A stretch of 64,000 nucleotides of DNA from Tabrizicola fusiformis (GTDB lineage Bacteria > Pseudomonadota > Alphaproteobacteria > Rhodobacterales > Rhodobacteraceae), in assembly GCF_013328815.1 (NCBI RefSeq), contig NZ_JABUHN010000006.1:62001-126000 (forward strand), read 5' to 3'. Positions 3,842 through 46,730 of this stretch are shown one piece after another (the stretch's first letter is position 1; each line of letters begins with the position of its first letter). The position numbers and the translations under genes are program-made. Below the pieces are notes generated by a model. The model did not search any database, had not been told where the DNA came from, and was given only the letters and a program-made list of their open reading frames with translations.

Positions 3842-5236
3842 ATGACCGCAACCAGAACCGAAACCGACAGCTTTGGCCCGCTGGAGGTTCCCGCCGACAA
3901 GTATTGGGGCGCGCAGACGCAGCGCTCGATCATCAACTTCCCCATCGGATGGGAAAGGCAGCCCGTCGCCATCATCCGCGCGCTGGGGGTGATCAAGAAA
4001 GCCTGCGCCGAAGTGAACATCGCGCAGGGCGACATTTCGGCAGAACTGGGCAATGCCATCGCCGCCGCCGCGACCGAGGTGATCGACGGCAAGTTCGACG
4101 ACAACTTCCCGCTGGTGGTCTGGCAGACCGGCTCGGGCACGCAATCGAACATGAATGCGAACGAGGTGATCTCGAACCGCGCGATCGAGATGCTGGGCGG
4201 CGTCAAAGGCTCGAAAAAGCCGGTGCATCCGAATGACCATGTGAACATGGGACAATCGTCCAACGACACCTTCCCCACCGCAATGCATGTCGCCATCGGC
4301 ATGATGGCGCGCGACGTGCTGCTGCCGGGCCTGACGAAGCTGTCGAACGCGCTTTGGGCCAAATCGGCCGAGTTCAAGGACATCATCAAGATCGGCCGCA
4401 CCCACACGCAGGATGCCACGCCCCTGACGCTGGGGCAGGAGTTTTCCGGCTATGCCACGCAAGTGGACAAGGGCATTGCCCGGGTGAAAGCCTGCCTGCC
4501 CGACATCTATGAACTGGCGCAAGGCGGCACCGCGGTCGGCACCGGCCTGAACACCCGGGTCGGCTGGGATACCCGTGTGGCGGCGGCGATTGCCGGCATC
4601 ACCGGCCTGCCCTTCGTCACCGCCCCGAACAAGTTCGAGGCGCTGGCGGCGCATGACGCGATGGTGATGTTCTCGGGCGCGCTGAAGACCGTGGCGGCGG
4701 CGCTCTTCAAGATTGCCAACGACCTGCGCCTGCTGGGCTCGGGCCCCCGCTCGGGTCTGGGCGAACTGATCCTGCCGGAGAATGAGCCGGGCTCCTCGAT
4801 CATGCCGGGCAAGGTGAACCCGACCCAGGCCGAAGCGCTGACCATGGTCTGCGCCCATGTCATGGGCAATGACGCGGCGGTGGGCTTTGCCGGATCGCAG
4901 GGCCATTTCGAGCTGAACGTCTACAATCCGATGATGTCCTACAACGTGTTGCAGTCGATGCAGCTTCTGGGCGATGCGGCGGGCTCGTTCACCGACAATA
5001 TGGTGGTGGGCACTCAAGCGAACACCGTGCGGATCGACAAGCTGATGAAGGAAAGCCTGATGCTGGTGACGGCGCTGGCCCCCACGATCGGCTATGATGC
5101 CGCCACCAAGGTTGCCAAGACCGCGCACAAGAACGGCACGACGCTGCGCGAAGAGGCGATTGCGCTGGGCTATGTCGATGGCGAAACCTTCGACCGCGTG
5201 GTGCGTCCCGAAGACATGATCAGCCCCAAGGGCTGA
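3842..5236 (+). CDS. fumC: Class II fumarate hydratase
   Basis: 464 aa, the normal length for FumC, an iron-independent tetrameric enzyme that interconverts fumarate and malate in the TCA cycle. The superfamily signature [11 protein letters not shown] lies at about residues 317-327. [14 protein letters not shown] and [14 protein letters not shown] are the other conserved blocks that form the active site. The ATG at 3842 is preceded by AGGAG; an upstream in-frame ATG at 3827 overlaps that site and is rejected. It is followed after one base by a small DUF4169 gene, suggesting a shared transcript. Confidence 0.97.
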
Positions 5237-5237
5237 C

Positions 5238-5417
5238 ATGGCCGAGGTGATCAACCTTCGCAGCGTGAAAAAGCAGGCGGCCCGCAAGGCCGCCCGCGCC
5301 AAGGGTGACGAGAATGCCGTGAAATTCGGCCGCAGCAAGGCCGAGCGGGAATTGCAGCAGGCGCAGGTTGCGAAAGCGGCACGCGATCTGGATGGCAAGA
5401 AACGCGAGACGGATTAA
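5238..5417 (+). CDS. DUF4169 family small basic protein
   Basis: 59 aa, highly charged, beginning MAEVINLRSVKKQAARKAA and ending GKKRETD. The short, lysine/arginine/alanine-rich sequence with the opening AEVINLR is the DUF4169 pattern, found next to fumC in related bacteria. It starts one base after the fumC stop, so it is very likely co-translated. Its function is not known; the composition would fit a nucleic-acid-associated or ribosome-associated protein, but that is inference. Confidence 0.8.
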   Translation: MAEVINLRSVKKQAARKAARAKGDENAVKFGRSKAERELQQAQVAKAARDLDGKKRETD

Positions 5418-5465
5418 CCTTTGGTCAACCAGGATGCGCCAGGCTGAGGGGCGGAGGTAACCGCC

Positions 5466-5699
5466 ATGCTGCATCCCCTGCCCGATCACCTGTCGCCCGA
5501 CCGTTGGATCGCCCAGATATTCACCGCCCGAACCGCCGCCGAAGGGGGCATCGTCCGCCGCCGCGTCAGCGATGTGGAGCGGCTGGTGGGCCGGGAACGC
5601 TTCCTGCGCGAGATTGAGCGGCGCGGCTTTCGCGCGGTGGAAAACGGCGGTCATATCGTGATCTTCTGCAACACAGAGCCGGTCCGTATCGTCGTGTGA
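5466..5699 (+). CDS. Conserved hypothetical small protein
   Basis: 77 aa, beginning MLHPLPDHLSPDRWIAQIF and ending CNTEPVRIVV. A good ribosome site (GGAGG) lies 8 bases before the ATG. The middle (GGIVRRRVSDVERLVGRERF) is charged and predicted helical; the C-terminal part looks like beta strand. Similar short proteins in related genomes sometimes carry a phosphoribosylanthranilate isomerase label, but at 77 aa it cannot be that TIM-barrel enzyme. It lies 48 bases after the DUF4169 gene and directly before a triple palindrome. Function unknown. Confidence 0.7.
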   Translation: MLHPLPDHLSPDRWIAQIFTARTAAEGGIVRRRVSDVERLVGRERFLREIERRGFRAVENGGHIVIFCNTEPVRIVV

Positions 5700-43402: not shown

Positions 43403-43837
43403 ATGCGGCTGACCACACGCACCAACCTTGCCATGCGCACCCTGATGTTCTGCGCCGTGAACCCCGACCGGATCGTGCGCAAGCACGAGGTGGCCGAAAG
43501 CTGCGGCGCCTCGGAAAACCATCTGGCACAGGTGATTCACCTTCTGGCCCGCAAGGGCTATCTGAAAACCCAGCGCGGCCGCGCGGGCGGGCTGATGCTG
43601 GGCCGCCCGGCCGGCTCGATCCGGGTGGGCGAGGTGTTCCGCACCTTTGAAAGCGTGCTGCCCTTTACCGAATGCACCGAAGAGACCGCCGCCACCTGTC
43701 CGCTGGTCGGGGCCTGTCGGCTGAAATGCGTGCTGGCCGAGGCGCTGGAGGCATTCTATGCCCGGCTGGACGCGGTCACCCTGACCGATCTCGTGCAAGG
43801 CAATGACGAATTGCAGGGTCTTTTGAAGGTGGCGTGA
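43403..43837 (+). CDS. nsrR: Rrf2 family transcriptional regulator, NsrR-like
   Basis: 144 aa. A winged helix N-terminal domain (MRLTTRTNLAMRTLMFCAVN, HEVAESCGASENHLAQVIHL, GRAGGLMLGRP) is followed by three cysteines in C-x7-C-x5-C spacing (ECTEETAATCPLVGACRLK, about 91-106), the pattern that binds an iron-sulfur cluster in NsrR. NsrR represses nitric oxide detoxification genes. RirA-type iron regulators are similar, so the exact role is not certain. It is preceded by an FNR-type box and its 3' end is duplicated just downstream. Confidence 0.8.
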   Translation: MRLTTRTNLAMRTLMFCAVNPDRIVRKHEVAESCGASENHLAQVIHLLARKGYLKTQRGRAGGLMLGRPAGSIRVGEVFRTFESVLPFTECTEETAATCPLVGACRLKCVLAEALEAFYARLDAVTLTDLVQGNDELQGLLKVA

Positions 43838-43938
43838 GGTTGGGTCGGGGTTAACCCCGACCTACGCAGGCAATGACGAATTGCAGGGGTTGCTGAAGCT
43901 GGCATGAGGGTAGGTCGGGGTTAACCCCGACCTGCGAG
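43799..43938 (+). repeat. Tandem duplication of the Rrf2 gene 3' end with a palindrome
   Basis: Bases 43799-43868 and 43869-43938 are two copies of one 70-base unit: the last 12 codons and stop of the Rrf2 gene, then a palindrome with arms GGTCGGGGTT/AACCCCGACC (43843-43862 and 43913-43932, the second extending to 22 bases). The second copy would encode GNDELQGLLKLA and a stop, against GNDELQGLLKVA in the gene. The coding parts differ at about seven bases, mostly synonymous, while the palindromes are identical. Confidence 0.85.
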
Positions 43939-43941
43939 GGT

Positions 43942-44340
43942 TCAGCCGCAGCAATCCTTGCCTGCAATCCCGGTCAGGATCGGACAATCGGGCCGCGCGT
44001 CGCCCGCGCAGGCCCGCACCAGCGCGCCCAGCGTTGCCTCCATCCCGCGCAGTTCCGCGATCTTTTCGGCAATCCGCGCCAGATGGCTTTCGGCCAGCGC
44101 CTTGACATCGCTGCTGGCCCGCGCACGGTCCTCATAAAGCGCCAGAAGCGCGCGGCAATCCTCGATGGAAAAGCCAAGCCCGCGGGCGCGGGCCAGAAAG
44201 GCCAGCTTATGCAAATCGCTCTCGCGGAAACTGCGATAGCCGTTGGCGGCGCGCAGCGGGCGGATCAGGCCGATCTCTTCGTAGTAGCGGATGGTCTTGG
44301 CGGGCAGACCGGCGCGGGCGGCAACCTCTTTGATGTTCAT
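43942..44340 (-). CDS. cueR: Cu(I)-responsive MerR-family regulator CueR
   Basis: 132 aa. The MerR HTH is [20 protein letters not shown], then [18 protein letters not shown], followed by the dimer helix. The metal loop CAGDARPDC (about 113-121, C-x7-C) is the CueR pattern for Cu(I), and the protein ends in KDCCG with two more cysteines. It activates copper export genes. Its ATG overlaps the copA stop, so it is co-transcribed with copA, and its target-type promoters precede both copA and copZ. Confidence 0.92.
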
Positions 44341-46730
44341 GCCCGCCTCCACCGCCGCAGCCGCAGCGCATTCGACAACACGAAGACCGAAGACAGCGCC
44401 ATCGCCCCCGCCCCCAGCATCGGCGACAGTTGCGGCCCGCCAAACGGCACCAGCACCCCCGCCGCCACCGGGATCAGGAGCGCGTTATAGCCGAAGGCCC
44501 AGAACAGGTTCTGCCGGATGTTGCGCATCACCGCCCGGGCAAGGCCGATGGCATCGGCCACCCCCATCGGATCGCCGCGCATCAGCACCACATCCCCCGC
44601 CTCGATCGCCACATCGGTTCCGGTGCCCATGGCGATGCCGACATCGGCCACGGCCAGCGCAGGCGCGTCATTGATGCCATCGCCGACAAAGGCGGTGCCG
44701 GGCCCAAGGGCGCGGATCGCTTCGGCCTTGCCCTCGGGCAGGATGCCGGCGCGAATGTCGGTGATGCCAAGTCCCTGCGCCACGGCGCGGGCGGTGGCCT
44801 CGGCATCGCCGGTGATCATGGTGGCCTGCACCCCCATCCGGCGCAGCGCCTCCAGCGTCGGGGCAGAGGTGGCGCGCGGCTGATCGGCCACGGCGATCAG
44901 ACCCGTCACCGCCCCCTCCTGCCCCACGAACAGCACGCCCTGCCCCCGGGACTGCGCCGCCGCCGCCATTTCGGCCAGCGCCGGCGGCACTTCGGCAAAG
45001 AGCCGGGCCGAACCGACCGCCACCGCAACTCCGTTCAGCCGCGCCGTGGCGCCCTTGCCCGGCACCGCCTGAAACCCTTCGGCGACGGGCGGATGCAGGC
45101 CGCGCGCCGCGGCTTCGGCCAGAACCGCCCCGGCAAGGGGATGTTCGCTGAACGCCTCGACCGCCGCGGCCACCTCGATCACCTGCGGCAGGTCGGGCAG
45201 GACCGCAACCACGCGCGGCTTGCCCTCGGTCAGGGTGCCGGTCTTGTCAAAGGCGACGCGGGCGACGGTTTCCAGCCGTTGCAGCGCCTCGCCCTTGCGG
45301 AAGAGAACGCCCAGTTCCGCCGCCCGCCCGGTGCCGACAAGGATCGAAACCGGCGTGGCCAGACCCATGGCGCAGGGACAGGCGATGATCAGCACCGAAA
45401 CCCCCGCCACAAGCGCCTCGGCCAGACCGGGGCCAAGCGCCAGCCAGACCGCCACCGTCACCGCCGCCAGCGCCATCACCACCGGCACGAACCACAAGGT
45501 CACCCGGTCCACCAGCGCCTGCACCGGCAGCTTGCCACCCTGCGCCTCGGCCACCAGCGCGATGATCCGCGACAGCACCGTCGCGGCCCCGACCGCCGTG
45601 ACCTGCATCACCAGCGCGCCCGCGCCGTTCACCGTGCCGCCGGTCACCGTCGCACCGGGCGCCTTTTCCACCGGCAAAGGCTCTCCGGTCAGCATGGATT
45701 CGTCCACCGCCGAGCGGCCTTCGGTCACCGTGCCGTCAACCGGCAGACGCTCGCCCGGGCGGATCTGCACCAGATCGCCGGGCAGAAGGCTGGCCACCGG
45801 CACCTCTTGCGGGCTGCCGTCCACCAGTTTCAGCGCCACCCGCGGCTGCAAGCCGACAAGGCGCGAGATTGCCGCCCCCGCCCGCCCCCGCGCCCGCGCC
45901 TCAAGACTGCGGCCCAAGAGGATCAGCACAACGATCACCGCCGCCGCCTCGAAATAGACCGCGCGGGCGGCTTCGGGGAAGAGCTGCGGCGCCAGCACGA
46001 CCAGCGTGGAATAGGCCCAGGCCGCCAGCGTGCCCACCGCGACAAGACTGTTCATATCGGGCGAAAGCCGTGCCAGCGCGGGCAGACCTTTCAGGAAGAA
46101 CCCCCGCCCTGGCAGCGCCAGAACCAGCGTGGCCAGCCCCATCTCGATCTGCCAGAGCAGAGGCAGGCCCACCGTCATATGCAGCCAGTGGTGGAACGCC
46201 GGGAACAGGTGCCCGCCCATCTCGGCCACGAAGACCGGCAGGGTCAGCACGGCGGCCAACAGGGTTTGCCGCCAGAGATGCCGCTCGCCCGCCTGCGGAT
46301 CGCGTGGGGGGGCATCGGCCAGCGGATGCGCCTCGTATCCTGCGCGGGTCACGGCGGCGGCAAGCGCCTCGGGGTCGGCCTCGTCCCAGAGCGTCACCTG
46401 CGCCTGACGGGTGGCCAGATTGGCCACCGCCGATGCAACACCCGGCTGCGCCCGCAGCACCCGTTCAACCCGGCCGGTGCAGGCGGCGCAGGTCATCCCC
46501 TCGACCGCCAGCGTCACGCTGGATTGCCGGGCCGGGTAACCGGCCTTGGCCAGGGCCCCGGCCAGCGCATCGGGCGTGGCGGGGGCGTCAAAGCGCAGAT
46601 CGGCGGTTTCGGTGCCAAGGTTGACGCTGGCCGCGGTCACGCCGGGCTGGGCCAGCAGCACCCGCTCGGCCCGGGCAACGCAAGAAGCGCAGGTCATGCC
46701 ATCAAGGTGAAAGCGCAGGGCGGTTGTCAT
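44337..46730 (-). CDS. copA: Copper-translocating P1B-type ATPase
   Basis: 797 aa. Two heavy-metal-associated domains at the N terminus carry GMTCASC (about 11-17) and GMTCAAC (about 78-84). The membrane Cu site is [11 protein letters not shown], the phosphorylation motif DKTGTLTEG, and the hinge [10 protein letters not shown]. It exports Cu(I) from the cytoplasm. AAGGAG lies 8 bases before the ATG at 46730. It is transcribed with cueR from a CueR-type promoter. Confidence 0.96.

Follow-up and report, generated by a model that had tools for sequence, protein, structure and literature searches.

Why does an intact regulatory gene of Tabrizicola fusiformis carry its own last codons, its stop codon and a palindrome a second time directly behind it? 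An earlier note on this DNA proposed that the second copy is the end of a divergent, functional allele, left behind when recombination at the palindrome replaced one allele by another. Here, we examine whether this second copy behaves as a dead duplicate or as part of an allele, and whether the palindrome marks the border of an exchange. All positions without a locus name refer to the window, i.e., the whole stretch of 64,000 nucleotides that was analysed.

The End of rrf2 Occurs Twice in Tandem

The intact rrf2 gene (43403 to 43837, plus strand) encodes an Rrf2-family regulator of 144 aa, matching PF02082 with 109.7 bits and TIGR00738 with 94.3 bits, above the cut-off of 73.3. The models nearest to the protein are RirA (NF008886, 127 bits, cut-off 193) and NsrR (NF008240, 108.7 bits, cut-off 182), both remaining under their equivalog cut-offs. 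The last 12 codons and stop of the gene form tail copy 1 (43799 to 43837, plus strand; peptide GNDELQGLLKVA, then the stop), which is followed by a perfect palindrome of 20 bp, here called REP 1 (43843 to 43862), with a GTAG tag on the minus strand at 43862-43865. Behind it lies tail copy 2 (43869 to 43907, plus strand; peptide GNDELQGLLKLA, then the stop), a truncated remnant holding only the gene's end, again 12 codons and a stop, and then REP 2 (43913 to 43932), a 20-bp palindrome identical to REP 1 with its GTAG tag on the plus strand at 43910-43913. The palindrome reads GGTCGGGGTTAACCCCGACC in both copies. A gene for a CueR-type MerR regulator (43942 to 44352, minus strand; TIGR02044, 149.9 bits, cut-off 147.4) is convergent with rrf2.

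The tandem repeat described in the earlier note was confirmed as a 69-nt unit at 43798-43866, made up of the 12 terminal codons with their stop, five spacer bases and the palindrome, which recurs without gaps at 43868-43936, 70 bases from start to start. The two copies are 87% identical, and the self-BLAST E-value of 7e-19 rules out a chance repeat. Nine mismatches separate them, six in the coding part, two in the spacer, one behind the palindrome and none inside the 20-bp palindrome, so the palindromes are identical as claimed; the probability that all nine miss the palindrome by chance is 0.036. The note had counted about seven coding differences, whereas we find that six of the last 36 coding bases of copy 2 differ from copy 1. 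Its reading of the codons stands, with four synonymous differences (GGT/GGG, CTT/TTG, TTG/CTG and GCG/GCA) and GTG/CTG as the sole amino-acid change (Val/Leu). The genome assembly comprises 4.4 Mb in 59 contigs and is listed as 100% complete with 0.35% contamination, and the differences between the two tail copies make it unlikely that the assembler collapsed or duplicated sequence here.

The Palindrome Belongs to a Dispersed REP Family

When up to three mismatches were allowed, the window held four matches to the palindrome (two sites on both strands) against a shuffle mean of 0.02. Genome-wide, there are 33 perfect cores, 52 sites with at most two mismatches compared to eight for the reversed pattern, and 29 exact GTAG-tagged copies of the form searched (16 on the plus and 13 on the minus strand) compared to none in the control. 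The tag stands at one foot of the palindrome, several copies are arranged as inverted pairs, and by a rough gene caller, 26 of the 33 perfect cores fall outside genes or at their edges while seven lie within called genes. The genome also encodes a RAYT ORF (locus L057; NF047646, 164 bits, cut-off 80) with REPs at its stop and inside it; a search of the genome with PF01797 (Y1_Tnp) gave no match. The exact tagged form was present in 9 of 295 sampled genomes of the family, and named records with the same tagged REP were mostly Rhodobacteraceae among the matches listed. Judged by these sequence features, the palindrome is a member of a GTAG-tagged REP family of low copy number, and as it belongs to a dispersed family, it is no special border made for rrf2. 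The tags of REP 1 and REP 2 face inwards while the 69-nt copies align in the same orientation, and because the palindrome itself is symmetrical, the orientation of this REP pair is ambiguous.

Some REPs are read as part of genes. The RAYT gene at L057 (G000:C12:113438-117738, positions 2001-2305) contains an inverted REP pair that is read in frame, and it terminates at a stop codon formed by the TAG of a REP tag. Of 164 GTAG-tagged REPs across the window and the loci L043-L064 and L093-L205, 24 have a tag whose TAG serves as stop codon to a gene called by the rough gene caller, suggesting that REPs may act as suppliers of stop codons. An in-frame REP was also seen between the lipoyl and E3-binding domains of a 2-oxoacid dehydrogenase acyltransferase (L050, G000:C56:5588-9605, position 2001), and the same kind of acyltransferase carries one at a similar place in L164 (position 507), two species in all.

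Copy 2 Behaves Like the End of an Allele

All three genus relatives (G001, G002 and G003) carry a single rrf2 tail, the sequence of G003 covering only 137 bases behind the rrf2 stop, so a double tail in all relatives, which the earlier note had named as contradicting its proposal, was not observed. In G001 and G002, no more than 20 bases separate the single-tailed rrf2 from the end of a CueR homologue (79% identical by tblastn), and their loci of 6 kb and 5 kb contained no REP core even when three mismatches were allowed. No tandem second rrf2 was seen in the three relatives, and their other Rrf2 genes are more distant, the nearest being 52% identical, in G002. The note had further suggested looking in related strains for an rrf2 gene with the 3' end of copy 2 (GGGGTTGCTGAAGCTGGCATGA), and this search came back empty: no such end was found in G001-G003, and none of the ends that could be read by motif search, in 15 of 29 family loci, equals LLKLA. 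Of 120 genomes, one per species, 32 gave a match, and the 29 loci were drawn from these. The Leu of copy 2 was absent from every orthologue end read in the three relatives and 15 family loci.

Two tests bear on the nature of copy 2, and as both use the same six differences, within only 36 coding bases, they are not independent. Placing six random changes in the 36 coding bases is expected to alter the amino acid of about 3.8 codons, whereas one such codon was observed (P = 0.013). In a relative-rate test, the distances of each tail to the genes of G001, G002 and G003 were summed. Copy 1 had a sum of 36 and copy 2 one of 37, whereas six random changes in copy 2 would bring its sum to about 46 (P = 0.002-0.003). 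Both comparisons support the view that copy 2 has the character of a 3' end from a functional but divergent allele.

A Parallel Behind ftsK

The same genome holds a second case at locus L062 (G000:C1:313149-317166, positions 2064-2911), where the stop codon of an intact ftsK is overlapped by an ORF of 161 aa, after which come a remnant of 162 nt encoding the FtsK gamma end and then a REP. ftsK is a large gene that is normally kept single. The remnant lies 688 bases beyond the ftsK tail and differs from it at 17 positions, affecting 16 codons synonymously (one of them the stop) and one non-synonymously. Both ends are about equally far from the relatives (tail/remnant distances of 30/29 for G003, 33/34 for G002 and 33/34 for G001), which differ among themselves by 14-21, and such a pattern was reached by free decay in none of 5000 simulations. 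The ftsK remnant is the strongest case, and a clearer one than the allele-like tail of rrf2 that it parallels. Relative to the distance from the relatives, the divergence between tail and remnant is 0.46-0.55 for rrf2 and 0.52-0.57 for ftsK, both being based on small numbers, and such similar ratios would fit one donor lineage. The intervening 161-aa ORF appears to be without convincing relatives; across 295 genomes, its own included, it had only one other match (E = 9e-4), which contains internal stops. No REP is found behind the intact ftsK, and the joint there is therefore not at a REP.

Other Tail Remnants and Their Association with REPs

The tagged REP was scanned in a collection of 84,980 species, yielding at least 113 stretches, to which 22 REP loci of our own genome besides the window were added. 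In a first look, covering 80 of these stretches and the own loci, direct repeats accompanied 12 of the 112 REP clusters, compared to 21 of 764 randomly placed points. The subsequent survey of gene ends covered all 113 and defined a tail remnant as a truncated copy of a gene end whose alignment comes as close as 12 bases to the stop, or closer, and which comprises less than 20% of the gene. It recovered rrf2 in the window, an SDR gene (L056), ftsK (L062), rplP (L108), L150 and L136. In three of the four main cases, the intact gene end and its copy are each followed by a REP.

At L056 (positions 2001-2341), the SDR gene end and REP are repeated. The remnant, which continues upstream, reaches about 130 nt; it is interrupted by a gap of about 40 bp, and its similarity drops away from the REP. 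Its last 39 nt contain one synonymous and three non-synonymous codons (codon P = 0.52), and its summed distance to three relatives is 35 against 25 for the intact tail (relative-rate P = 0.42-0.49), so that the SDR remnant fits a plain duplication followed by free decay, as far as its sequence tells.

The rplP remnant of 75 nt, from Rhodobacter sp. SW2 (L108, positions 4398-5673), is separated from rplP by an EamA-type gene. It has five synonymous and three non-synonymous codons, one of them nonsense (codon P = 0.035), and a summed distance to 21 relatives of 390 compared to 249 for the intact tail (relative-rate P = 0.13-0.20). By the relative-rate test it fits free decay, while the low codon P speaks somewhat for an allele there too, and the evidence is thus mixed. 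Among 29 other family loci (30 with what seems to be SW2 itself), the rplP end could be located in 21, and neither a copy of the rplP tail nor the EamA gene was found in up to 1.5 kb behind rplP in any of these 21. Both the SDR and the rplP remnant may be old replacements or plain duplications. We also observed that the rplP end, REP and a terminator-like stretch flank the EamA-type gene on both sides (149 nt, 92.6% identical), and that some relatives (loci L237, L238, L245 and L248) carry a different palindrome, of the GATGGGCA...TGCCCATC type, between the rplP stop and the terminator-like stretch.

L150, from a Tabrizicola MAG, holds a tail remnant of 76% identity behind a gene with ABC-F-like domains; its REP stands between gene and remnant and falls outside the 200-nt rule used below. 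L136 carries a tail copy of 39 nt (97%) with the REP in front of the gene. Several further candidates were rejected: apparently two related lipoyl domains (L050), a 216-nt REP-bearing repeat in Pseudoalteromonas that is not clearly a gene tail (L095), a short stretch of 81% similarity (L160), an Ala/Pro-rich linker (L164) and an array of REP-like units (L049). Among the background stretches, L262 (35 nt, 80%, E = 1.6e-4) seems to lie inside the next reading frame, three bases on, and is probably due to chance.

We counted how often such copies accompany REPs in our own genome, using the window, the 22 REP loci and 40 background stretches; the REP loci were chosen for carrying REPs and a few stretches overlap slightly. 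Where a REP lay no more than 200 nt from the stop of the intact gene, 2 of 29 gene ends had a tail copy, compared to 2 of 785 among the remaining ends (Fisher P = 0.007); the latter two are ftsK, with its REP behind the remnant, and the weak L262. Counting a REP at either stop, a choice made after the ftsK case was seen, gave 3 of 30 against 1 of 784 (P = 0.0002), or 2 of 29 against 1 of 784 with the window case excluded (P = 0.0036). When only gene ends with 60 or more free bases were considered, the counts were 2 of 24 and 0 of 333 (P = 0.0043). The association was not significant in the stretches from other genomes (1 of 131 against 2 of 724, P = 0.39).

Origin of the Double Tail

The locus presents two tails with a REP behind each, single-tailed relatives, and differences between the tails like those between functional genes. 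We consider it reasonably probable (about 0.58) that the double tail is a recombination scar, formed when an rrf2 allele was replaced by DNA of a related strain. DNA with a related rrf2 allele and a REP behind its stop would have entered the cell, possibly, as a guess, by a gene transfer agent, since the genome has two GTA_TIM genes. On the left side, homologous exchange would have replaced the end of the resident rrf2. On the right side, the incoming DNA would have been linked, directly after its own REP, to a point in the other allele that precedes the stop by 12 codons; the last 12 codons, stop, REP and downstream DNA of that other allele would remain as a dead tail. Such a joint would represent one-sided, homology-facilitated illegitimate recombination, in which the REP hairpin may have stalled the exchange or offered an end; inspection of the joint (43863-43868) by eye revealed no clear microhomology. 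Likewise, import from another lineage is an inference, and either allele may be the foreign one. Dead tails would decay freely with time, and the remnants of SDR and rplP may represent such cases at a greater age.

Two parts of the earlier proposal thus fared differently. The allelic nature of copy 2 is supported by the codon test, by its equal distance from the relatives and by the ftsK parallel. On the other hand, recombination exactly at the palindrome is still conjectural, as the intact ftsK has no REP behind it and the palindrome is a dispersed REP with many other sites.

Possible, if doubtful, is that the tail and REP unit was tandemly duplicated within the genome, either because replication slipped or switched its template at the REP hairpin or through RAYT-driven REP/BIME amplification, and that the dead copy then decayed. 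The rrf2 repeat is indeed in register, gapless and with a period of 70, the SDR remnant fits decay, as does the rplP remnant by the relative-rate test, and a REP behind both copies in most of the main cases is what amplification of REP units would give. The best support for such amplification comes from Nunvar et al. (2010; PMC2817692), who report that the 3' end of rayt and the sequence up to the downstream REP became the inter-REP segment of a BIME in four cases. However, a slippage copy in free decay is disfavoured at rrf2 by the few amino-acid changes (P = 0.013) and by the lack of excess distance of copy 2 from the relatives (P = 0.002-0.003), and it cannot explain ftsK, with its ratio of 16:1 and none of the 5000 simulations.

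If instead the whole of rrf2 with its REP had been tandemly duplicated, both copies being functional for a time before the second was cut to its last 12 codons, the same pattern of synonymous differences and equal distances to the relatives would be predicted. We regard this as unlikely, as it requires two long-lived paralogues and a large deletion, and the same again for ftsK at a similar relative age, while no tandem second copy was seen in the three genus relatives. That reads of two strains were joined during assembly can hardly be right, since the rrf2 copies do resemble alleles of two strains but the listed completeness and contamination (100% and 0.35%), similar structures at other loci and the fact that one ordinary read could span copies 70 bases apart all speak against it.

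Relation to Known Systems

The recombination scar proposed for rrf2 is a variant of known processes. Like the REP/RAYT and BIME/REPIN systems, the rrf2 palindromes belong to a dispersed, GTAG-tagged family that includes inverted pairs, in a genome whose RAYT gene carries the same REPs; unlike in REPs and BIMEs, the copy number here is low and the inter-REP segment is an ordinary, allele-like host gene end. The capture of rayt ends, as far as described in the excerpts from PMC2817692, similarly turned a gene end, its stop and the stretch to the downstream REP into an inter-REP segment, but concerned rayt, whereas here host genes (rrf2, SDR and rplP) are involved and the rrf2 differences are of the between-allele kind. 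The same source, in the part available, states that IS200/IS605-type elements make no larger target-site duplications. Arrays of T6SS immunity genes in Vibrio have been modelled by homology-facilitated illegitimate recombination (PMC5361080, in part), sharing with our proposal a homology anchor on one side, an illegitimate joint on the other and displaced old sequence downstream; they differ in that our cases each concern one regulatory or housekeeping gene, with a remnant that spans 12 to about 54 codons and with REPs close by, the event being deduced from sequence. In Escherichia coli, the positions of some REPs match possible points of recombination around O-antigen clusters that were transferred, according to portions of PMC3158064. 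Some REP sites there would be borders of replaced DNA, but large regions were replaced and those portions do not describe tail remnants. A description of host-gene tails between REPs was not found in the available parts of PMC3733652, PMC5361080, PMC2884548, PMC2817692, PMC3116915 and PMC3158064.

Implications

We speculate, while considering it unlikely, that REP hairpins, possibly with nicking by RAYT, are borders where exchange of incoming alleles stops and truncated ends of old genes are left in their wake, so that REP-flanked remnants would record past replacements genome-wide. Detecting allele replacement between bacterial strains normally takes a comparison of many genomes. With a tail remnant, pieces of both alleles are preserved next to each other in one genome, and a past replacement would therefore be recognisable without the donor, and roughly datable from the divergence of the remnant. 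If REPs do mark such borders, the history of gene flow could be traced from REP-flanked tail remnants as if from fossils. The use of REP/RAYT elements to their host is debated; if REPs collect such scars, these elements would be tied to the borders of gene exchange.
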